Below, piece after piece: positions 360 to 16,593 of a stretch of DNA of 64,000 nt. Source of the DNA: Rubripirellula reticaptiva (GTDB lineage: Bacteria > Planctomycetota > Planctomycetia > Pirellulales > Pirellulaceae); contig NZ_SJPX01000001.1 in assembly GCF_007860175.1 (NCBI RefSeq), positions 868,001-932,000 of the forward strand, given 5' to 3'. Both the position numbers and the translations under genes were made by a program. Below the pieces are notes generated by a model. That model made no database searches and was not told the DNA's origin. It worked only from the letters and a program-made list of their open reading frames with translations. How positions within the stretch are numbered: position 1 is the first letter of the stretch; each line of letters opens with the position of its first letter.

Positions 360-1796
360 CTAACCCAGCTTCTTTGCAAACGCTTCGAGCGACTTGTCGA
401 GCAATCCGATCGCCGCATCGATGTGATCGTGAGTCGTCGTGACCGGCGGAGGCAAAAACCGGATACGCGTGGGATCGCCACCACAAAGAAAACAGAGCAG
501 GCCGAGATCAAACATCGTATCCATCAACAGTTTCGCTTGGTCGTAACTGCCATCGCCGGGCGTGAAGGCAATCATCATGCCTTCGCCGAATGGACCATTT
601 ACCAACTTGGGATACTTCTGGTGAAGCTTTTCCAGTGCGGCGGCAAAATAAGCGTGGCGAGTCATATTCTTGCCCGTTTTGCCAAAGCATCCTTCCGCAT
701 CTAGCAATTCCAAGATTTTTATGCCGGACGCGATCGACGAAGATGCCCCTGTGAACGTTTGGCTTAGCAGAGGCCCCTTGGGCACAAAGTCTTTTCCGTA
801 AAGCGTCGCACACACCTGCGTGATCTTGCCGAGCGTGACGATGTCAGCAAATTCGTCCAAACCGTAATGCTGGAAAGCGAAGGGCATCGAGGTGCGCGAG
901 AAGGATTGAACTTCATCAAAGATGATCGGAACGCCGGCATCGCGAAGCGGCTTGGAAATCGCAGCGAAAAATTCGTGGCTGCCCGGATAATATCCGCCTT
1001 CCCCAGCGACCGGTTCGGCCCAAAAAGCTGCATAACGACCGGGATGACGTTTGAGCAATCGATGGAGTTCATCGACGGCCCATTTTTGGCTTCGCTTGGG
1101 ATTGGCTTGATCGCGAAACGGCAAGTAGTCGACGTTCACGACCAGCGGCAATCCCATACGGTACTTTGCCTTGTCCGTCAAAGCAGCCATCGCTAGCGAT
1201 CGACCGGCAAATGCATTGTCAAACGCGATCACTCGATCGGCCGGCGAGTTGTGATGCATCGCAATCTTCAGCGCGTTTTCGTTCGCCATCGCGCCACTTG
1301 TCGAAAGCAAACAGTGATCCATGCGAGCGCCATTCTTTTTGGCTAACTCGATCAACCGTTCGCTCATCTTGATGCTTGGCGGATGCTGTTGCAGGTTCCC
1401 CTGCATGACCGTGTCTTCTAGAGCGCCGTCGATGGCCGCGTCGATCATGGCCGGATGGCTATGCCCACAACCATGCACGCCGATGCCGCCGATGAAGTCC
1501 ATCTTAATGCTGCCGTCGGCCAACTCGACCATCGGGCCGTTACCCAAGCCTGACGAAAGATACGGTAAGAAAGGCGGACCACCACGGGTCGCCCCCAATC
1601 GTTCAAGCAATGCTTGATACGACGTCACCAGTGCCGGATCAGGATCCTTGGGCGCGGTCATCGTGGCGGAGTGGTCGGCAACAGCTTCGGCGATCAAGCG
1701 ACGGGCTTCGGCGATTCGCGGGTCCGCTCGCAGCGATTCTGCATTCAACGACTTTTTGACCGATGATTCCACGACAACTGACTCCGGGACCGACAA
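360..1796 (-). CDS. Class III PLP-dependent aminotransferase (ornithine/lysine-type)
   Basis: A protein of 478 residues with the fold-type I class III layout: a glycine-rich GGIGVHGCGHSHP segment, a STSGAMANENALK phosphate-binding region, the IIFDEVQSF motif with the PLP-contacting Asp, and TLGKITQVC carrying the likely Schiff-base Lys. A TQVC sequence right after that Lys is something I associate with L-lysine 6-transaminase relatives rather than classic ArgD/AstC proteins, so the amino donor is uncertain (lysine, ornithine or succinylornithine). The open frame begins with TTG at 1796; no ATG gives a better start and the ribosome binding site is weak, so the N-terminus is unsure. It sits between an M20 peptidase gene and astA on the same strand, which favours a role in arginine or ornithine breakdown. 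Confidence 0.85.
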   Translation of the reverse strand: MSVPESVVVESSVKKSLNAESLRADPRIAEARRLIAEAVADHSATMTAPKDPDPALVTSYQALLERLGATRGGPPFLPYLSSGLGNGPMVELADGSIKMDFIGGIGVHGCGHSHPAMIDAAIDGALEDTVMQGNLQQHPPSIKMSERLIELAKKNGARMDHCLLSTSGAMANENALKIAMHHNSPADRVIAFDNAFAGRSLAMAALTDKAKYRMGLPLVVNVDYLPFRDQANPKRSQKWAVDELHRLLKRHPGRYAAFWAEPVAGEGGYYPGSHEFFAAISKPLRDAGVPIIFDEVQSFSRTSMPFAFQHYGLDEFADIVTLGKITQVCATLYGKDFVPKGPLLSQTFTGASSSIASGIKILELLDAEGCFGKTGKNMTRHAYFAAALEKLHQKYPKLVNGPFGEGMMIAFTPGDGSYDQAKLLMDTMFDLGLLCFLCGGDPTRIRFLPPPVTTTHDHIDAAIGLLDKSLEAFAKKLG

Positions 1797-1892
1797 CGAT
1801 GGGGATTGAAAAGAACGATTCGCGATTCACAACGCAGGAACATAGTAACGCTTGCGGCCGAAAAGGTTCAGGCGCCGCCGATTTCGTGGCTA

Positions 1893-3131
1893 TCACGTTT
1901 CCTGACTAGCGTGTTCTTGACCAGCGAAGCTGGCAATCAGGGCGGCAACCGTCAACGCGGCCGGTGCGATCGAGTCGACTTCGCAGAACTCGGTCGGACT
2001 GTGCAGCCCATCGCCAGAAACGCCCATTGTGTCGACATTTTTCAGTCCCCAGGCGGCCAGCTTTGATCCATCACAAGCACCGCCCGTATCGGACCAGCGA
2101 ACTGACCGTCCCGCAAACTTCGCGGCTTGTTCGACGGCCTGCTGCATTTCTCGACCGACGGCGTCGACACGCTTTGGTGGCGAGTGAAATTCACCCTGCA
2201 AGGCGACGCGAAAATCGTCCTGGCAAAACTGCTGTGCCAGGTCCGTTAGCGACTGCTGCACCCGCACCATCGCATCGGCGTCGGTGACTCGCACGTTCAA
2301 CTGAACTGCCGCATGGTCGGGCACACGATTTAGCGGGCCGCCGCCGGTGATGCGACCGACATTGACCAGAACTCCAACGTCTGGATCGTGCAAAGATGTG
2401 ATTTCGGGGACTAGCTTGGCCAAATGAACGATTGCGTTTCGACCGTCTTGCGGATTGCGACCTGCGTGAGCCGATCGGCCGCGGACGACAAACACAAAGT
2501 TGCCGGATCCTTTGCGATTAGCGACCAGCGACCGGTCCGGCAACGTCGGTTCGAAGACAAGTGCTTGATCAAACTGACCAACCATCGCGTGAATGGCTTC
2601 GCTCGATGCGGTGGTGCCAATTTCTTCGTCCGGATTCAACAAAATTGAGACGCCAACGCCATCTGCCAAGCCGAACTTCAAAACCGCTTCCATTGCCAGC
2701 TTGATGACCGCGATGCCGCCCTTGGCATCGGCCGTTCCGGGCCCCACCAGACGGTTCCCCATCCGCACACATCGATTGGGCTCGATGCCTGGGGGATAGA
2801 CGGTATCATAGTGAATCATCATCAAGATTCGTCGCTTGGAAGACACATTGTGGTGCCAGACCAACAGTGGGCCTGTCGGTTTGCGAAGCAATTCTTCGGA
2901 ATCTCCGATCAGTTTCAATTCGGGCAGTTCAACGGAATCGAACTGGACTCCGACTCGACCAAAGTCTTCGATCAGCATCGCAGCCATTGATCGCAGGCTG
3001 GTCGAGTCCATGGACCACGAATTTTGATCGCACCAGCGAACCAATTCGGCGACCGACGACTCGGTTCGCCCGCCAATCCACTGGGCCGCTGCGTTGATTC
3101 GTTCGGTAAGCTTGGCGGACGACGATTCCAC
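1893..3131 (-). CDS. M20 family metallopeptidase (CPG2/ArgE/DapE-like amidohydrolase)
   Basis: 412 residues with the di-zinc M20 signatures in order: MIHYDTVYP (metal His and Asp), GPGTADAKGG (bridging Asp), NPDEEIGT (catalytic and metal Glu pair), GRSAHAG in the dimerisation lid domain, and a C-terminal DGLHSPTEF carrying the last metal His. Such enzymes cleave N-acyl or gamma/alpha peptide bonds of amino acids (carboxypeptidase G2, acetylornithine deacetylase). No signal peptide is seen, so it is probably cytoplasmic. The frame opens with GTG at 3131. It is the first gene of a minus-strand set with the aminotransferase (96-base gap) and astA. It could replace AstE by removing a succinyl group from succinylglutamate; this is inference from context only. 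Confidence 0.85.
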   Translation of the reverse strand: MESSSAKLTERINAAAQWIGGRTESSVAELVRWCDQNSWSMDSTSLRSMAAMLIEDFGRVGVQFDSVELPELKLIGDSEELLRKPTGPLLVWHHNVSSKRRILMMIHYDTVYPPGIEPNRCVRMGNRLVGPGTADAKGGIAVIKLAMEAVLKFGLADGVGVSILLNPDEEIGTTASSEAIHAMVGQFDQALVFEPTLPDRSLVANRKGSGNFVFVVRGRSAHAGRNPQDGRNAIVHLAKLVPEITSLHDPDVGVLVNVGRITGGGPLNRVPDHAAVQLNVRVTDADAMVRVQQSLTDLAQQFCQDDFRVALQGEFHSPPKRVDAVGREMQQAVEQAAKFAGRSVRWSDTGGACDGSKLAAWGLKNVDTMGVSGDGLHSPTEFCEVDSIAPAALTVAALIASFAGQEHASQET

Positions 3132-3270
3132 AAGATTGGACTTTCAAAAAGACGATTTGCCATAAAAACGGCGAACCAGCCCAGGCTGGGCCGCGAACGG
3201 CATGGTTCTCTTCACCGCAAGATCCGTTATTCTGCTAAGCTTCGAGATTGGAGATTCATCGAGTAATTTT

Positions 3271-4839
3271 ATGGGCGAAATACTGCTCTATTACAGACGG
3301 CCCGACCCGACGACTTGGGTTTACTTGTCGTCGTTCTTGGCCATTGGATTGTACTTCGTTTTCCATCGGTTCTGGAGCATCCGGAATCTCGACATTCTGC
3401 TGATCATCTTGTTGGCCCCTGGATTGTTGATCGTCCACGAGGGATACCGGCGACAATTGGTTCAGTCCGAGGCGATAGTGCGGTCGGAGTCTAGCGGAGA
3501 AGTCCCAGAGAAGCCTAAATCGGACATCAGTCCAGTAAAGTCGCTAGCGTCATCGCTGCCGATTTTCGCGTTGTTCCAGATCGACACCGATCCTGTGGCC
3601 GATGCGGCTGAAACGCAGAATACGGCTGAAGCAGAAAATTCTGCTGAAACACTCGATGCACCCGACCAGACGCCGGTGGCCGAGCCGATTCCGCTAGGTC
3701 CACGGGACATCCAACGATGGGGATTCATCTACCTGTTCATCGTCGAAGCGTTTCTGCTGCTGCGGTTGATGCTGGATCCGTTGATGGTTCGACGGCCACT
3801 GCTTGACCCCAACCTGACCAGTGGCGGATTGACCTTTATCGGAATTTCGTTGTTCATTTTCATGATGGCGAATGTCGTGACGAGCGATTCACGGATCCAG
3901 GTCACTCAGGGGCCAGCCCTTGGACCGGGCTATGCGATGATGAACATGTTGCCAGCGATTCCGACGCGTCCGATCAGTGACGAGATCGGCGGCGCCTCGT
4001 TGCAAGAGATGCCGACGGCGACAGATACGTCAAACTCGCAGTCTCGATTGGCGACCGTTGCCAAGGCACTCGCTATAGCTGCCCATTTGGCGATCGTGAC
4101 GGGAATCGTATTGATCGGCAATCGTCACTTTGCCAACATTCGCGCCGGCGTTGGCTGCGCGACGCTGTACCTGATGCTGCCTTACACCGCTCAAATGACC
4201 GGCCGTGTTGACCATGCTTTGCCAGCCGCGCTTTTATTATGGGCGGTGCTGTCGTATCGACGTCCGTTAGTCGCCGGCATCTTCCTTGGACTCGCCGGGG
4301 GTTTGGTGTATTACCCGCTGTTCTTGCTGCCGCTTTGGTTTAGTTTCTACTGGCAACGGGGCGCTCGGCAATTTGCAATCGGTGTGGTTGGAATGTTGGC
4401 GTTGCTGATGATCGCGCTTTCGTTCGACGACACGGCATCGCTGACCGAACATTTTCGGCGGATGTTTGGGCTGCTCAATCCGAACCGCGATTCGATTGGG
4501 CTTCGTGGATTTTGGAGTCTGGGCCCCGAACCGATTTGGCGACTGCCTGTGATTGTTGCGTTCGTCATCCTGTGCGCGTTCTTCGCAGCGTGGCCGGCTC
4601 AAAAGAATTTGGGCACCCTGATCAGCGGATCGGCCGCGGTGATGGTGGCGTCTCAGTTCTGGCATGGCTATGGCGGCGGACTCTACATCGCATGGTTCCT
4701 GCCGCTATTGCTGCTGGCCGTCTTTCGTCCCAATCTGCAGGACCGCATCGCGACCAAGGTAGTGATAACGGGCAAACGATCGATGGGCGGAAAATCCAAT
4801 TTAGCCATCGCAGGTTTCGCCGCTGGAACTCAGTCCTGA
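3271..4839 (+). CDS. Polytopic membrane protein, GT87/mannosyltransferase-like architecture
   Basis: Predicted start is the ATG at 3271 (MGEILLYYRRPD...); the open frame extends upstream to 3202 but without a convincing start. About 522 residues with two N-terminal hydrophobic segments, a soluble Ala/Glu-rich stretch at roughly residues 75-145, and at least eight further membrane segments in the C-terminal half. The segment GRVDHALPAALLLWAVLSYR followed by LAGGLVYYPLFLLPLW resembles the multi-spanning C-type glycosyltransferases (family 87 or mannosyltransferases), but I see no decisive catalytic motif. The following gene encodes a membrane-bound MutS-like ATPase on the same strand, 150 bases downstream. 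The last codons run into a 12-base tandem repeat. Function not assigned. Confidence 0.7.
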   Translation: MGEILLYYRRPDPTTWVYLSSFLAIGLYFVFHRFWSIRNLDILLIILLAPGLLIVHEGYRRQLVQSEAIVRSESSGEVPEKPKSDISPVKSLASSLPIFALFQIDTDPVADAAETQNTAEAENSAETLDAPDQTPVAEPIPLGPRDIQRWGFIYLFIVEAFLLLRLMLDPLMVRRPLLDPNLTSGGLTFIGISLFIFMMANVVTSDSRIQVTQGPALGPGYAMMNMLPAIPTRPISDEIGGASLQEMPTATDTSNSQSRLATVAKALAIAAHLAIVTGIVLIGNRHFANIRAGVGCATLYLMLPYTAQMTGRVDHALPAALLLWAVLSYRRPLVAGIFLGLAGGLVYYPLFLLPLWFSFYWQRGARQFAIGVVGMLALLMIALSFDDTASLTEHFRRMFGLLNPNRDSIGLRGFWSLGPEPIWRLPVIVAFVILCAFFAAWPAQKNLGTLISGSAAVMVASQFWHGYGGGLYIAWFLPLLLLAVFRPNLQDRIATKVVITGKRSMGGKSNLAIAGFAAGTQS

Positions 4840-4881
4840 ACTCAGCTTTAAACTCGGTCTTGAACTCTGGCTTGAATTGGG
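4826..4881 (+). repeat. Degenerate 12-bp tandem repeat, four full copies plus a partial one
   Basis: Units begin at 4826, 4838, 4850 and 4862 (GAACTCAGTCCT, GAACTCAGCTTT, AAACTCGGTCTT, GAACTCTGGCTT), then a partial GAATTGGG. The array covers the stop codon of the upstream membrane protein gene (TGA at 4837-4839). Twelve is a multiple of three, so array length changes upstream of the stop would keep the frame. Confidence 0.7.
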
Positions 4882-4992
4882 CCACGGAACTCGCGGGCCT
4901 CGCCGCCTGAGACTTTGCCGCCCGCGTTTCCTGGATCCGATAACCATTAGCGCCGTGCACTCACCAGTGCCAAAATATCCATCGAGAATGCC

Positions 4993-6987
4993 TTGAACGA
5001 ATCCGTCCCCGCCCCTGAATCGGCTCCCGACCTTGACCCGCACGACGCCAGCGATGCGGTCGCGCGGTACCAATCACAACTAGAAACCATCAACGCCAAA
5101 AGCAACGAGTTGGTGGCCAAGGATCGGTTGATTGGTAAGTTCCGAGTCGTGTTGTTCTTTGCCGCGATCGTGTTTTGGGTCGTTGGCTATTCAAGCGACA
5201 ACTTGTCAGGTGCCGTCTATTTGGGATGGTTTATGTTGTTGGCATTCTTTGTTGCCGCAACACTGAATGAACCGATCCGTGATTCGATCGACGAACTGAA
5301 ACGACACCGCAGTGTGTTCGAACGACTGATCGCAAGACTGCAGCGAAACTGGGACACGTTGGCAACGAAACGACTGACCCGCCAACTGGCGTCGATCGAA
5401 TTGGCCGGCCATCGCCGCGAAGTGGCAGGCGACTTGGACCTGCTCGGCCGAGCCTCGCTGTTCCATCTCGTTTCGATGGCTGCGACCACGCCTGGAATCA
5501 AGACGCTCGCCCATTGGTTGTCCGGCCCCGCCGTTGCGAAAGTTGCGATCGAGCGAGCCGCAGCCGTCGATGCGCTCGCCCCGATGCGTGAACAGCGACT
5601 GCGTTTCTATACGTTGGCTCGCGAAGTCGGCGACAGCACGGGCGACCCCGAGCATTTTACCGAATGGGCCACGGGCGATGCATGGTTGAAGCACCGCGGT
5701 TGGCTGTCGACATGGGCAAAACTATCGGTGGTAATCGCCTGCCTGCTATTTGCTGGCGTGGTGCTGGGCAGCATACTTTCAATCTCGGCCATTGTTTTCA
5801 AAGCTTCCTTGGTCGGCTTGGTCGCGTTGATCATCGTCAATCTGTTGATCACAACGATGGTGCTGGGGCCTGCCCACCAGATCTTTTCCATTGCGATGGC
5901 TAACCGACGGATGGTCAGCGATTACGAAGAGATCTTTTCAGCCGCCGATTGGCTGCCAACGTCAAATACAAAGACAAGTACAAAAACGTCGGACGCCAAA
6001 ACATCCGAAACGGATGGTGTCCTGACTCGAATCCGATCCAGCATGGTCGACGGCGACCGCTGTGCCGTCGAAGGCATGCGAGCGTTGCAGCGAGTCGCAA
6101 AAGCAGGCGCACTGCGTCAGTCCGCAGGCACTTTTTTGCTGTACCTGCCACTACAAGCGTTCGGGTTGTGGGACGTATGGGTTCTAAAACGTCTCGAAGA
6201 CTGGCAAGCGACGTATCGCGATCAAGTCGCGGGCTGGTTCGATGCACTTGGCGAATTGGAGACGCTCGTTTCCATCGCTGCACTTCGCGATGAATACCCA
6301 ACTTGGGCCAAGGCAACTTGGATCACAGACCCCGACAAAGCCACGGTCAAAGCAACCGCAATCGGCCATCCACTGCTGCCCGACGGATCACGAGTTCGCA
6401 ATAACGTCCAAGTCGGTCCTCCGGGAACACTGTTGTTGGTCACCGGCAGCAACATGTCGGGCAAAAGCACGATGCTTCGCAGTGTCGGATTGAGCGTTTC
6501 GCTAGCTGGCATTGGGGCACCGGTGTGTGCCGAAAGTTTCGAAACGGCGTCGGTGGAATTGGCAACCAGCATTCGCGTCAGTGATGATGTCAGCGAAGGA
6601 GTTTCGTTCTACATGGCGGAACTGAAACGACTAAAAAGCGTGGTGGACTTGGCTCGGCAAATGGCAAAAAATCACGACAGAGTCTGCTTGTTCTTGCTTG
6701 ATGAAATTCTGCAAGGCACGAACAGTCGCGAACGTCAAATCGCGGTGGTGCAAGTATTACGACACCTAATGGATTCCAAAGCCATCGGCGCAATCACGAC
6801 GCACGACTTGGAACTGGCGGATGAACCCGAGTTGCAATCGATCGCAACCACCGTCCACTTCCGGGAAACGATTCGCCCAGACGCCGAAGGCAACGAACAG
6901 ATGACGTTTGATTACCAAATGCGACAAGGTGTTTCGCCGACCACCAACGCGCTGCGTTTGTTAGAAATGGTCGGGCTGGGGAAATAG
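4993..6987 (+). CDS. Membrane-anchored MutS-family ATPase
   Basis: 664 residues starting at a TTG (4993); the ATG at 4988 is out of frame. Two hydrophobic helices lie near residues 50-95 and two more near 245-310, separated by a MutS core/lever-like helical region. The C-terminal third is a MutS ATPase: Walker A GSNMSGKST at 485-493, Walker B CLFLLDEILQGTNSRER, and a THD segment (AITTHDLELA). The mismatch-reading domain I with its Phe-x-Glu motif is absent, so canonical mismatch repair is unlikely. Relatives with this membrane-helix plus MutS-V layout occur in several phyla and are usually annotated only as MutS-related. The upstream gene is a membrane protein on the same strand and the downstream gene is convergent. 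Confidence 0.85.
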   Translation: MNESVPAPESAPDLDPHDASDAVARYQSQLETINAKSNELVAKDRLIGKFRVVLFFAAIVFWVVGYSSDNLSGAVYLGWFMLLAFFVAATLNEPIRDSIDELKRHRSVFERLIARLQRNWDTLATKRLTRQLASIELAGHRREVAGDLDLLGRASLFHLVSMAATTPGIKTLAHWLSGPAVAKVAIERAAAVDALAPMREQRLRFYTLAREVGDSTGDPEHFTEWATGDAWLKHRGWLSTWAKLSVVIACLLFAGVVLGSILSISAIVFKASLVGLVALIIVNLLITTMVLGPAHQIFSIAMANRRMVSDYEEIFSAADWLPTSNTKTSTKTSDAKTSETDGVLTRIRSSMVDGDRCAVEGMRALQRVAKAGALRQSAGTFLLYLPLQAFGLWDVWVLKRLEDWQATYRDQVAGWFDALGELETLVSIAALRDEYPTWAKATWITDPDKATVKATAIGHPLLPDGSRVRNNVQVGPPGTLLLVTGSNMSGKSTMLRSVGLSVSLAGIGAPVCAESFETASVELATSIRVSDDVSEGVSFYMAELKRLKSVVDLARQMAKNHDRVCLFLLDEILQGTNSRERQIAVVQVLRHLMDSKAIGAITTHDLELADEPELQSIATTVHFRETIRPDAEGNEQMTFDYQMRQGVSPTTNALRLLEMVGLGK

Positions 6988-13723: not shown

Positions 13724-15319
13724 TTAGTTAACCGCTTGTGAAACTTGGCGTCGTCCCATTTCAAGATCGCGGACAAAATTTAACAGCTCATCGAACGCGA
13801 CTGGCTTTACCAAGTGCAGATCAAACCCCGCTTGCGATGCGAGTTCTCGGTCTTGCTTACTCCCCCAGCCCGTCAGTGCAATCAGCTTAACGTGGGTGAA
13901 ATGCTGGGAGCGACGCAGTTGACGAGCCGCTTCATAGCCGTCCATCCCAGGCAATCCAATGTCCATAACAATGACGGACGGACGGAATCTCAATGCTTGG
14001 TTGATTGCCTCAACTCCATCAGCCGCAAGCTCGACTTGATAACCGGATGACTCGAAAAGATCGCGTAACATCTTGGCGGCATCTTGGTTGTCATCCACTA
14101 AGAGCAACTTGTTAGGTTGGTCAATCGATACTATACCGCTGCAACCGGTGTTTAAATCAAGAGTACCAAGTCGATTGATGTCCGACGTGTCAAGATTCGT
14201 TTCGACTAGTGGATTGGGATGCAAGGGAAGCTGGACCGTAAACGTGCTGCCCAGTCCCGGCCCCCGGCTTTCGACTGACAGATTGCCGTGGTGCAGCTCA
14301 ATCAATCGCTTTGCGATCGTCAAACCAACGCCCAACCCGCCATATTCGCGAGTCCGGCTGGTGTCGACTTGAACGAAAGGTTCAAAGATTCGCTCGGCAT
14401 ACTCAGCGGCAAGACCTATTCCGGAATCCTTAATTGTAACGTGCGCAAATCCGTTGCATTGGTCTACGAACAAGCAGACATGCCCTGATGCAGGAGTATA
14501 CTTCGACGCATTTCCCAGCAGATTTGCTGTCAACTGTGCTAAGCGAACGCGATCGCCGTCGACCCATACTGGCGAGTCTGGAATGACTGATTGAAATCGC
14601 TGCGACTTCTCTGCAAACGCCCCTTCGATCATCTCCACGGCGTCGCGTATGGAATCGCGCAGATCAAGTTGTTCGACCAGAAGCTCAATGTGTCCGCGAC
14701 AGAAACGAGACACTTCTAGCAGGTCGTCGGTGATCCGAATCAAATGCTCAGTCTGACGACTTACCACCTCACGCACCCGCCGTACCGTCTCAGTTGATCC
14801 CTCACTTCGTTCTAACAACGCCATGCTTGAAAGAATGGGTGCCAATGGGTTTCGCAGTTCGTGTGCCAGCAACGCCAGAAACTCGTCTTTACGCTTGTCC
14901 GCTAGTTGAAGATCAGTTCCTAAACGAACATTTTCCGTTGCTCGATTTTCGGCCAAGCGACGTTGCCGCTCAGCACGGTCAAAAAGCAAAACAGCGACGC
15001 AGTTGACAATTACATAAATGGTCAATTGAACCAGTTCGGGAACACCTTCGATCAAAAGGCTACTGGCAGGAGGAATAAAGAACTGAGCTGCCGACAGAGT
15101 GCCAAGCACAATTGCCAACACAGCGGGGCCAGAGCCTGACACCCAGGCAGTCAGCAGAACGCTCAAGTAAAAAAGACTGAACGGGCATTCTTCGTTCAAC
15201 CAAGGTTGCAATAACGAACGAAACCAAATGACGATCGCAGTACTGAATATGGCGATTGAATAGCGTCCAATATTGAACGTCCAATTTCGAATGCCGCGTT
15301 GCAATACCTCGTCGTTCAA
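13724..15319 (-). CDS. DUF4118 hybrid histidine kinase with C-terminal receiver
   Basis: I choose the TTG at 15319, because it overlaps the stop of the upstream CsrA-REC gene as TTGA; the frame is open back to an ATG at 15385. About 531 residues. Order: four hydrophobic helices of KdpD/DUF4118 type in the first 130 residues, a coiled linker, HisKA with LALLAHELRNPLAPI (phospho-His), HATPase_c with N box (LLGNASKYTP), G1 (KDSGIGLA) and G2 (GGLGVGLTIAKRL), then a receiver with VDDN acid pocket, phospho-acceptor VIVMDIGLPG, Thr in LTGWG and Lys in LVKPV. No periplasmic sensor or PAS domain. The protein should autophosphorylate, pass the phosphate to its own receiver and possibly to the receiver of its operon partner. 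Confidence 0.9.
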   Translation of the reverse strand: MNDEVLQRGIRNWTFNIGRYSIAIFSTAIVIWFRSLLQPWLNEECPFSLFYLSVLLTAWVSGSGPAVLAIVLGTLSAAQFFIPPASSLLIEGVPELVQLTIYVIVNCVAVLLFDRAERQRRLAENRATENVRLGTDLQLADKRKDEFLALLAHELRNPLAPILSSMALLERSEGSTETVRRVREVVSRQTEHLIRITDDLLEVSRFCRGHIELLVEQLDLRDSIRDAVEMIEGAFAEKSQRFQSVIPDSPVWVDGDRVRLAQLTANLLGNASKYTPASGHVCLFVDQCNGFAHVTIKDSGIGLAAEYAERIFEPFVQVDTSRTREYGGLGVGLTIAKRLIELHHGNLSVESRGPGLGSTFTVQLPLHPNPLVETNLDTSDINRLGTLDLNTGCSGIVSIDQPNKLLLVDDNQDAAKMLRDLFESSGYQVELAADGVEAINQALRFRPSVIVMDIGLPGMDGYEAARQLRRSQHFTHVKLIALTGWGSKQDRELASQAGFDLHLVKPVAFDELLNFVRDLEMGRRQVSQAVN

Positions 15320-16149
15320 GGCTGCACCTTGCACGCATCCGATGGAAGAGTCCGTTGATGAGTGCCGAGCTGATCGGTCGAACAATCTTCGCGAATTGCG
15401 TCCACCAACTGCCGAACATCGACAGGCTTGGAAAACCAGCGATCCCAGCCACGTCCGACTGGCTCATTGTCCAGGTTGCGGCGGGAGCCTGTCACCGCAT
15501 AGACCATCAGTTGGCTGAGCATCACGTCGTGGCGAATGTATTGCAATGTTTCGATGCCATTGCCGAAGGGCATGTCGATGTCCATCAACACCACATCAGG
15601 TAGGCCACAACCGTGTCGCAATTGGCTGAGGGCTTCGGCCCCGTCGCGAGCGACGTAGACGACGAACCCATGCGACGCCAGCAGATACGTCATCAAGCCG
15701 CGTTCGTTCTCAGAGTCTTCCACCACTAGAACGCGCAGCTGACGAAACGCCGTCGCCCCTGTTTTATCCTGGCAAGTATCAGGAGACGAAATCTCGTAGT
15801 TCGCGACGTCGAGCTTATCGAGGAGCGAACCGATCAGCCTTTTTGCGTCAACATCATCGCCCCGTCGCAACTGCAACTGAACAGCATCCACAAGAAGTTG
15901 CAGAGTGTTTAACTGGTTACGTCGGCGATGCTCCTCTTCTCCCCATTCTGAATCGCTCGTTAAGAGAGAATCAAATTCAGAATTTGGTTGCACCTCAACG
16001 TCCACCACTTCAGAACGTTTGACTTTGATATCAGTGGGAGCTTCAATCCCTATTTTAACAATGCGCCCTCGCACCTGAAGGATGCTGAGCGTGATGTCCA
16101 AACCGGGGAACGTAATTTGTTGCTGCGCACGTCGAGATAGAACCAGCAT
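15316..16149 (-). CDS. CsrA/RsmA domain fused to a response-regulator receiver domain
   Basis: 277 residues. Residues 1-55 are a CsrA-type RNA-binding domain: MLVLSRRAQQQI opening, VRGRIVKIGIEAP centre, and DIKVKRSEV end, keeping Leu4, Arg6, Val43 and Arg45, which correspond to the RNA-contacting residues of CsrA. A charged helical linker (about 65-130) leads to a full receiver domain: VLVVEDSENE (acidic Glu144/Asp145), VVLMDIDMP with phospho-acceptor Asp190, AVTG with Thr220 and FSKPV with Lys241. CsrA is normally a 60-70 residue stand-alone protein. The ATG at 16149 is preceded by a strong GGAGGAAA at 16157-16164, 7 bases away; this site also matches an A-N-GGA CsrA target, so autoregulation is possible. 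The hybrid kinase gene overlaps its stop. Confidence 0.88.
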   Translation of the reverse strand: MLVLSRRAQQQITFPGLDITLSILQVRGRIVKIGIEAPTDIKVKRSEVVDVEVQPNSEFDSLLTSDSEWGEEEHRRRNQLNTLQLLVDAVQLQLRRGDDVDAKRLIGSLLDKLDVANYEISSPDTCQDKTGATAFRQLRVLVVEDSENERGLMTYLLASHGFVVYVARDGAEALSQLRHGCGLPDVVLMDIDMPFGNGIETLQYIRHDVMLSQLMVYAVTGSRRNLDNEPVGRGWDRWFSKPVDVRQLVDAIREDCSTDQLGTHQRTLPSDACKVQP

Positions 16150-16164
16150 GGCCAGATTTCCTCC
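16150..16164 (-). promoter_or_regulatory. Strong Shine-Dalgarno with possible CsrA autoregulatory site
   Basis: On the minus strand, ACGGAGGAAA lies 7 bases before the ATG of the CsrA-REC gene. It contains two GGA triplets, the core of CsrA-binding sites, placed on the ribosome binding site as in classical CsrA-repressed leaders. The autoregulatory role is inference. Confidence 0.45.
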
Positions 16165-16593
16165 GTTGAAAATACCAATGGTTTGCTAACGCCAAGAACA
16201 CTTGTTGCATCAAGGAAACAAGTTTCGTTTGGACACAAATATTCGAGTCGTATCCAGCCCTAGCTGCCAGCGGCGTCTTCATCGACATCTCGGCAGCACC
16301 CAAGACGGTAACACGTTTTCTTCAACGCTCACCGACCTGAAACACTGGCAAAGTTTTATGACTGCGTAACAACCCGGTCAAGCGGCTTTCGAACTTCCCG
16401 TTTGCGGTGGGTACATGCCTGCGGTTTCAGCAAGCTAGCAATACTTATTCAAGAATGGATTGAAAGCCGAGATTCTGCAGTAAGCTGGAGAGCCGAAGGA
16501 TGAATGGATAGCAAACGGAATGGCGTGCTCCTCCAAACTTGATTCATGAGTTATGAGAGTGCACTAGCCAATGTTGGCCGAAGGAGACTCTTG
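16165..16593. other. Non-coding gap between CsrA-REC gene and IS3 remnant
   Basis: No supported gene. The right part (about 16540-16593) probably contains the left end of the insertion sequence, but I could not match an inverted repeat. The left part must hold the promoter of the CsrA-REC operon; no box is convincing by eye. Confidence 0.5.

Follow-up and report, generated by a model that had tools for sequence, protein, structure and literature searches.

How might a signal perceived by a sensor kinase be brought to bear directly on messenger RNA? In well-studied bacteria, decoy RNAs or binding proteins stand between environmental signals and the RNA-binding protein CsrA. A receiver domain on CsrA would link a sensor kinase directly to the control of translation. 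The window analyzed here (the whole stretch of 64,000 nucleotides, from Rubripirellula reticaptiva) contains a gene in which the two domains are joined, and the question is by what route, if any, phosphorylation might govern its product. The pertinent features, given by window position, are as follows:

13724..15319, minus strand: hybrid histidine kinase (DUF4118, HisKA, HATPase_c, receiver), 531 amino acids, the next gene downstream of the fusion
15316..16149, minus strand: fusion gene encoding CsrA, a helical hairpin with an H-box, and a receiver, 277 amino acids, ATG start and TGA stop (translation and Pfam)
15391..15732, minus strand: receiver domain, residues 140-253 (PF00072, E 7.4e-17)
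15580..15582, minus strand: Asp190, phosphoacceptor of the receiver, present in 147 of 154 fusions
15787..15951, minus strand: middle two-helix hairpin, residues 67-121 (helices predicted by AlphaFold2; consensus match to HisKA)
15916-15918, minus strand: codon for Asn78, part of the H-box
15928..15930, minus strand: His74, proposed phosphotransfer histidine in the H-box H-x-x-R-N-x-L, present in 127 of 154 fusions
16000..16149, minus strand: CsrA RNA-binding domain, residues 1-50 (PF02599, E 8.7e-14)
16015-16017, minus strand: codon for Arg45, within the CsrA domain
16132-16134, minus strand: codon for Arg6, within the CsrA domain
16159..16164, minus strand: GGAGGA within the fusion's leader, a putative ribosome-binding site that may also be a GGA site of the CsrA type

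The fusion gene and its conserved residues

The fusion is a single unbroken reading frame on the minus strand, with no stop between the CsrA and receiver parts; the plus-strand reading of the same positions is interrupted by stops. The original prediction, that the gene encodes an N-terminal CsrA domain and a complete receiver, is borne out by the domain search that it had proposed: both domains exceed the Pfam cut-offs, CsrA with 51.7 bits (cut-off 27) and the receiver (Response_reg) with 62 bits (cut-off 30.2). The residues of CsrA that contact RNA (Leu4, Arg6, and Arg45, which we take to be the equivalent of Arg44 in E. coli CsrA) all lie in the translation where they had been predicted. 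So do Asp190, Thr220, and Lys241 of the receiver, which with the acidic pair Glu144/Asp145 make up a full active site, conserved among relatives.

An alignment of distinct fusions shows Arg6 and Arg45 kept in all 154, Leu4 in 138, Asp190 in 147, and Lys241 in 142, and in a smaller set of 112 distinct fusions, Arg6, Arg45, and Asp190 are invariant. The single-frame layout is identical in those 112 sequences, which rules out that the gene is the artefact of a frameshift or of a sequencing error that merged two genes, the flaw that the original prediction had allowed for.

The protein is a CsrA-domain protein and not a csrA equivalog, since it falls below both of the NCBI cut-offs for the latter (46.4 against 73 bits, and 44.1 against 70.1 bits). 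No NCBIfam model spanning the whole fusion appears among the best 25 of its 81 matches, and Pfam finds no HATPase_c match within it.

Distribution of the fusion

The fusion is real, conserved, and spread through the window's class. The survey of Planctomycetota that the original prediction had called for was made by running a profile built from 23 fusions over 392 genomes of the phylum, with at most six candidates scored per genome. It located the full-length fusion at 18 places, in 16 genomes and always in the window's class, with scores of 172 to 312 bits; the next matches, which cover the receiver region, begin only after a drop to 106 bits. A strict threshold, which admits a few partial matches as well, was passed in 100 of 397 genomes of the class and in 74 of 396 genomes of the order, two samples that overlap. 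A scan of the collection with a seven-sequence sub-alignment produced at least 80 loci, and among the matches listed, four align from residue 1, every one in a Planctomycetota record (a Planctomycetota, an Isosphaera, a Planctomycetaceae, and a Gemmata metagenome assembly). These names point to Planctomycetia as the class. That the fusion might be unique to the window's genome is ruled out by matches across genomes of the phylum, the class, and the order.

The fusions aligned here come from regions picked by hand from the match lists, in sets of 20, 80, and 40, rather than from every place. The last 40 regions were added to an earlier set to give 156 genes, including five whose receiver is too decayed to be detected by profile. 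These encode 154 distinct proteins of the CsrA-hairpin-receiver layout, the window protein included, all of which were aligned. One region (L061) was omitted as a duplicate of another (L053).

A conserved hairpin between CsrA and the receiver

The segment between the two domains is itself conserved. Leu80, His74, and Asn78 vary least in the 112-sequence set, where His74 is the second least variable position from residue 55 to 135, behind Leu80. The 127 proteins counted as carrying His74 include one (L055 10488) that was counted through misalignment: it is scored as lacking His74 in the counts on 112 sequences and as having it in the counts and the tree on 154. Asn78 accompanies the histidine, being kept in 119 of the 127 proteins with His74 but in only 2 of the 27 without. 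The motif H-x-x-R-N-x-L resembles the H-box of the adjacent kinases, H-E-L-R-N-P-L, minus the proline: proline is found five residues after the histidine (H+5) in 71 of 72 neighboring kinases but in none of 127 fusions, and an acidic residue at H+1 in 70 of the 72 kinases but in 45 of 99 fusions.

An AlphaFold2 model predicts helices at residues 67-96 and 99-121, with blocks of pLDDT 65-81 over residues 71-120. The run used five sequences and gave a mean pLDDT of 65, a pTM of 0.47, and a poor CsrA part, and the placement of the domains was therefore not interpreted. By alignment and by this predicted structure, the H-box histidine lies within a two-helix hairpin.

When a profile of the middle segments (110 of the 112) was compared by hhalign with one of the DHp domains of neighboring kinases (72 segments drawn from 102 HATPase reading frames), the probability of a match was 96.4%, with a score of 40.1, and His74 fell on the phosphoacceptor histidine. 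Shuffling columns gave maxima of 12.5 (30 shuffles) and 17.5 (100 shuffles). With the seven H-box columns masked, the score collapses to 10.4, within the range of the shuffles, so it is the H-box that carries the resemblance to kinases, and the masked profile detects no similarity to HisKA or DHp beyond it. The middles of fusions lacking His74 (24 of the 27 rows) score 11.1.

In Pfam searches, HisKA is not matched by the window protein at E up to 0.1, but it is matched by 6 of 23 whole fusions at that threshold. It is also the family that middle segments match most often, 13 of 36 doing so at the same threshold (best E 5.4e-6); the 36 were chosen by hand and all carry His74. A typed consensus of the middle matches HisKA (PF00512) at E 2e-4 with 21.8 bits, under the curated cut-off of 26.9. 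In the HisKA alignments of one relative (L048) and of the consensus, His74 stands at profile position 11, the position of the phosphoacceptor in the window's own kinase. Hpt (PF01627) is not among the 15 families matched by 23 fusions at E up to 0.1. Our reading is that the middle segment forms a DHp-like hairpin for phosphotransfer, whose origin may lie in a kinase.

Neighboring kinases and the presence of His74

The hybrid kinase downstream of the fusion probably begins at a TTG that would share four bases with the stop of the fusion (TTGA); the mechanically determined reading frame starts from 15385. In L039, the nearest relative, the genes stand in the same order, and the kinase frame likewise overlaps the fusion by four bases. 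A histidine kinase lies less than 1 kb from 103 of the 156 fusion genes, the remaining 53 having none that close. By way of background, the window's genome has 62 HATPase_c matches in 7.85 Mb. Partnership is here judged from closeness, because many of the kinases counted (37 of the 90 hybrids and 4 of the 11 that lack a receiver) are on the opposite strand.

The type of kinase tracks His74. Among fusions with a kinase within 1 kb, 90 of the 91 that carry the histidine stand beside a hybrid (88 distinct proteins), whereas 11 of the 12 that lack it stand beside a kinase without a receiver and one beside a hybrid (Fisher p 7e-13, uncorrected for relatedness). One kinase (L204) was counted as a hybrid by hand because its receiver sits in another frame; in that region (1637-5878), the break between the receiver and the rest of the kinase reflects a frameshift or an assembly error. 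The 11 receiver-less partners comprise seven CheB-CheR-PAS kinases and four others, and Pfam at E up to 1e-4 finds no receiver in any of them.

The hybrid kinases beside fusions with His74 end no more than 60 amino acids past their last receiver in all 89 cases measured, and there is therefore no room in them for a C-terminal Hpt domain. The sole fusion without His74 beside a hybrid kinase (L287) has as its neighbor a kinase with an Hpt domain of its own, and the receiver of that fusion looks decayed. The one fusion with His74 beside a receiver-less kinase (L041) lies on a 7.4-kb contig, where a two-receiver kinase is found 2.3 kb away. The nine hybrid kinases examined by Pfam are of three types: four with DUF4118, three of the CheB-CheR-PAS type, and two multi-PAS kinases with two receivers. 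Kinases with an ethylene-receptor-like N-terminus (ETR1_N) are seen beside fusions lacking His74 in L264 (5543-7315) and L265 (5455-7170).

In several clusters with two fusions, the fusion without His74 lies by a receiver-less CheB-CheR-PAS kinase and the one with His74 by an apparent hybrid of about 1340 amino acids. Six regions (L164, L167, L173, L165, L152, and L190) carry two CsrA-receiver fusions along with large kinases, some bearing a receiver and others lacking one, and L164 encodes in addition a CheB-CheR-PAS protein that has no kinase domain.

Since the proteins are related, the association of His74 with partner type is weak as a count of evolutionary events, though consistent across members. 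In a tree of 112 sequences, 10 of the 13 copies without His74 fall in one clade. In a tree of 154, His74 changes state 10 times, and two independent well-supported pairs bear on partner type, of which one agrees with the association and the other is uninformative.

A proposed phosphorelay ending on mRNA, and its alternatives

The original prediction supposed that phosphorylation of the covalent receiver controls CsrA. The conserved active site and the closeness of a kinase to so many of the fusions speak indirectly in favor of that idea; it overlooked the conserved hairpin with His74, in the light of which a relay becomes a likelier mechanism than a simple two-step system. The reading that we prefer, and consider slightly more probable than not, is that the fusion forms the output stage of a phosphorelay directed at mRNA and not at DNA. 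The downstream hybrid kinase would autophosphorylate on its own histidine and hand the phosphate on to the receiver at its C-terminus. From there it would go to His74 in the hairpin of the fusion, acting as a phosphotransfer domain, and from His74 to Asp190 of the fusion's receiver. Once phosphorylated, the receiver would alter the binding of RNA by the CsrA part, perhaps by way of the hairpin, which probably dimerizes, as CsrA does. The sequences show the domains, their conserved residues, and the pairing of the genes; which way the phosphate flows, whether a dimer forms, and what happens to RNA binding we infer. The pattern relating His74 to kinase type fits the four steps proposed (kinase histidine, kinase aspartate, His74, Asp190).

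Extended to the class as a whole, the proposal would be of a family of relays whose final output is direct binding of mRNA, with one polypeptide combining the last two of four steps with the effector, and with the histidine kept or lost according to the need of the kinase for an intermediate between receivers. We regard this broader claim as evenly poised between true and false.

Perhaps the control is simpler. The kinase, or its receiver, might phosphorylate Asp190 with no relay through His74, the hairpin serving to join or dimerize the two halves and His74 and Asn78 forming a phosphatase or docking surface. In HisKA kinases, the acidic residue at H+1 is needed for catalysis, and a threonine or asparagine at H+4 serves phosphatase activity. 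The fusions have kept Asn78, at H+4, far more faithfully than the acidic residue, and residues still occupy the hairpin in 24 of the 27 rows without His74, both as this explanation would have it. It leaves unexplained, however, why His74 should track hybrid kinases (90 of 91 against 1 of 12) and why the one hybrid kinase beside a fusion lacking the histidine should supply an Hpt of its own. We judge it rather unlikely.

It is also conceivable that the middle has no kinship with kinases, being a helical hairpin of the TPR-like or coiled-coil linker kind in which H-x-x-R-N-x-L arose by convergence, with the receiver controlling CsrA through linker or dimer contacts. Of the 27 sequences listed at E up to 10 by a search of the PDB with the middle profile, most are TPR/PPR or designed helical proteins, and none is named as a kinase. 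TPR_19 is matched by 4 of the 36 middle segments, and the likeness to DHp, as noted, depends on the H-box. Against this, HisKA is matched by more of those segments than any other family, His74 stands at profile position 11 in the alignments checked, and His74 and Asn78 are lost together. Such an origin seems improbable.

That the receiver is a docking or dimerization domain only, attached to a constitutive CsrA part, and that the pairing with kinases is a relic of an origin from a hybrid kinase, draws on seven relatives that have lost Asp190 but kept the CsrA arginines, and it is very improbable given that the phosphorylation site is retained in 147 of 154.

Those seven proteins (L282, L283, L284, L285, and L286, from one genus, together with L280 and L281) lost Asp190 in two changes on the tree, and His74 is missing from all seven, as against 20 of the 147 that retain Asp190, a joint loss that counts in favor of the relay. 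Since their arginines persist, phosphorylation may be dispensable in part of the family, and these CsrA-hairpin proteins are possibly a phosphorylation-free offshoot.

Comparison with known systems

The original prediction left open whether the architecture had been described. CsrA as the output of a receiver is already on record: Lavin et al. 2007, citing Galperin 2006, list it with ANTAR among RNA-binding outputs of response regulators. The proteins they refer to likewise combine a receiver with an RNA-binding domain, but the sentence in question names no organism for CsrA and makes no mention of a middle domain; in the fusions studied here the output is N-terminal and an H-box hairpin lies between. 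A literature search, which covered few subscription papers, found nothing on the middle domain, the pairing with kinases, or the distribution. As far as the searches show, the H-box hairpin and its coupling to kinase type are new.

With the CsrA/RsmA family the fusion shares the match to PF02599 and the residues Leu4, Arg6, and Arg45. It differs in being about 220 residues longer and in its proposed control by a covalent receiver rather than by decoy small RNAs or FliW.

Spo0B and ChpT are separate phosphotransfer proteins built on DHp hairpins that keep a degenerate ATPase-like domain. The hairpin of the fusion resembles them in carrying an H-box histidine without a working kinase domain and in the proposed transfer of phosphate between receivers. 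Unlike them, it is short, has no ATPase-like domain, and is joined both to its target receiver and to an RNA-binding output.

E. coli CsrA is not known to have a receiver. For that reason, no weight is given to the label of orphan response regulator applied to it in a passage of a 2025 review (PMC12471899).

The BarA-UvrY-Csr and GacS-GacA-Rsm pathways also run from a sensor kinase to control by a CsrA-type RNA-binding protein. In the account given in the relevant part of PMC7652899, their response regulator works by transcribing the decoy small RNAs csrB and csrC, whereas in the fusion, the receiver sits on the CsrA protein itself. A word search of the main text of two papers on CsrA (PMC7366521 and PMC7652899) found no occurrence of "receiver."

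The family offers a natural experiment on why phosphorelays need a phosphotransfer histidine, in that paralogues in the same cluster differ in having it, apparently to match their kinase.

Leaders and other CsrA-domain genes

Of 109 distinct fusion leaders (from 114 fusion genes), 93 carry the pattern A.GGA a short way from the start codon. Among mechanically chosen control genes, the pattern occurs in 7 of 98, and in 4 of the 21 of those with a motif like a ribosome-binding site. It is found in 15 of 34 distinct leaders of stand-alone csrA genes (from 36 loci). The GGA-rich leaders may signify autoregulation by binding of CsrA or, equally, strong ribosome-binding sites, and as a sign of a dimer that binds GGA-containing RNA, the enrichment is only suggestive. 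A strong GGA-rich motif of the type GGAAAGGAG precedes the starts of fusions in the window (16150-16170) and in relatives, often with two GGA five bases apart.

E. coli has a single csrA. Genes with CsrA domains are greatly expanded in the window's class, with 2 to 17 loci per genome in all 59 genomes examined. The window's genome has nine such loci, the fusion among them; another (L008, G000:C1:1203268-1203420) encodes a CsrA paralogue of 165 amino acids with a long C-terminal extension.
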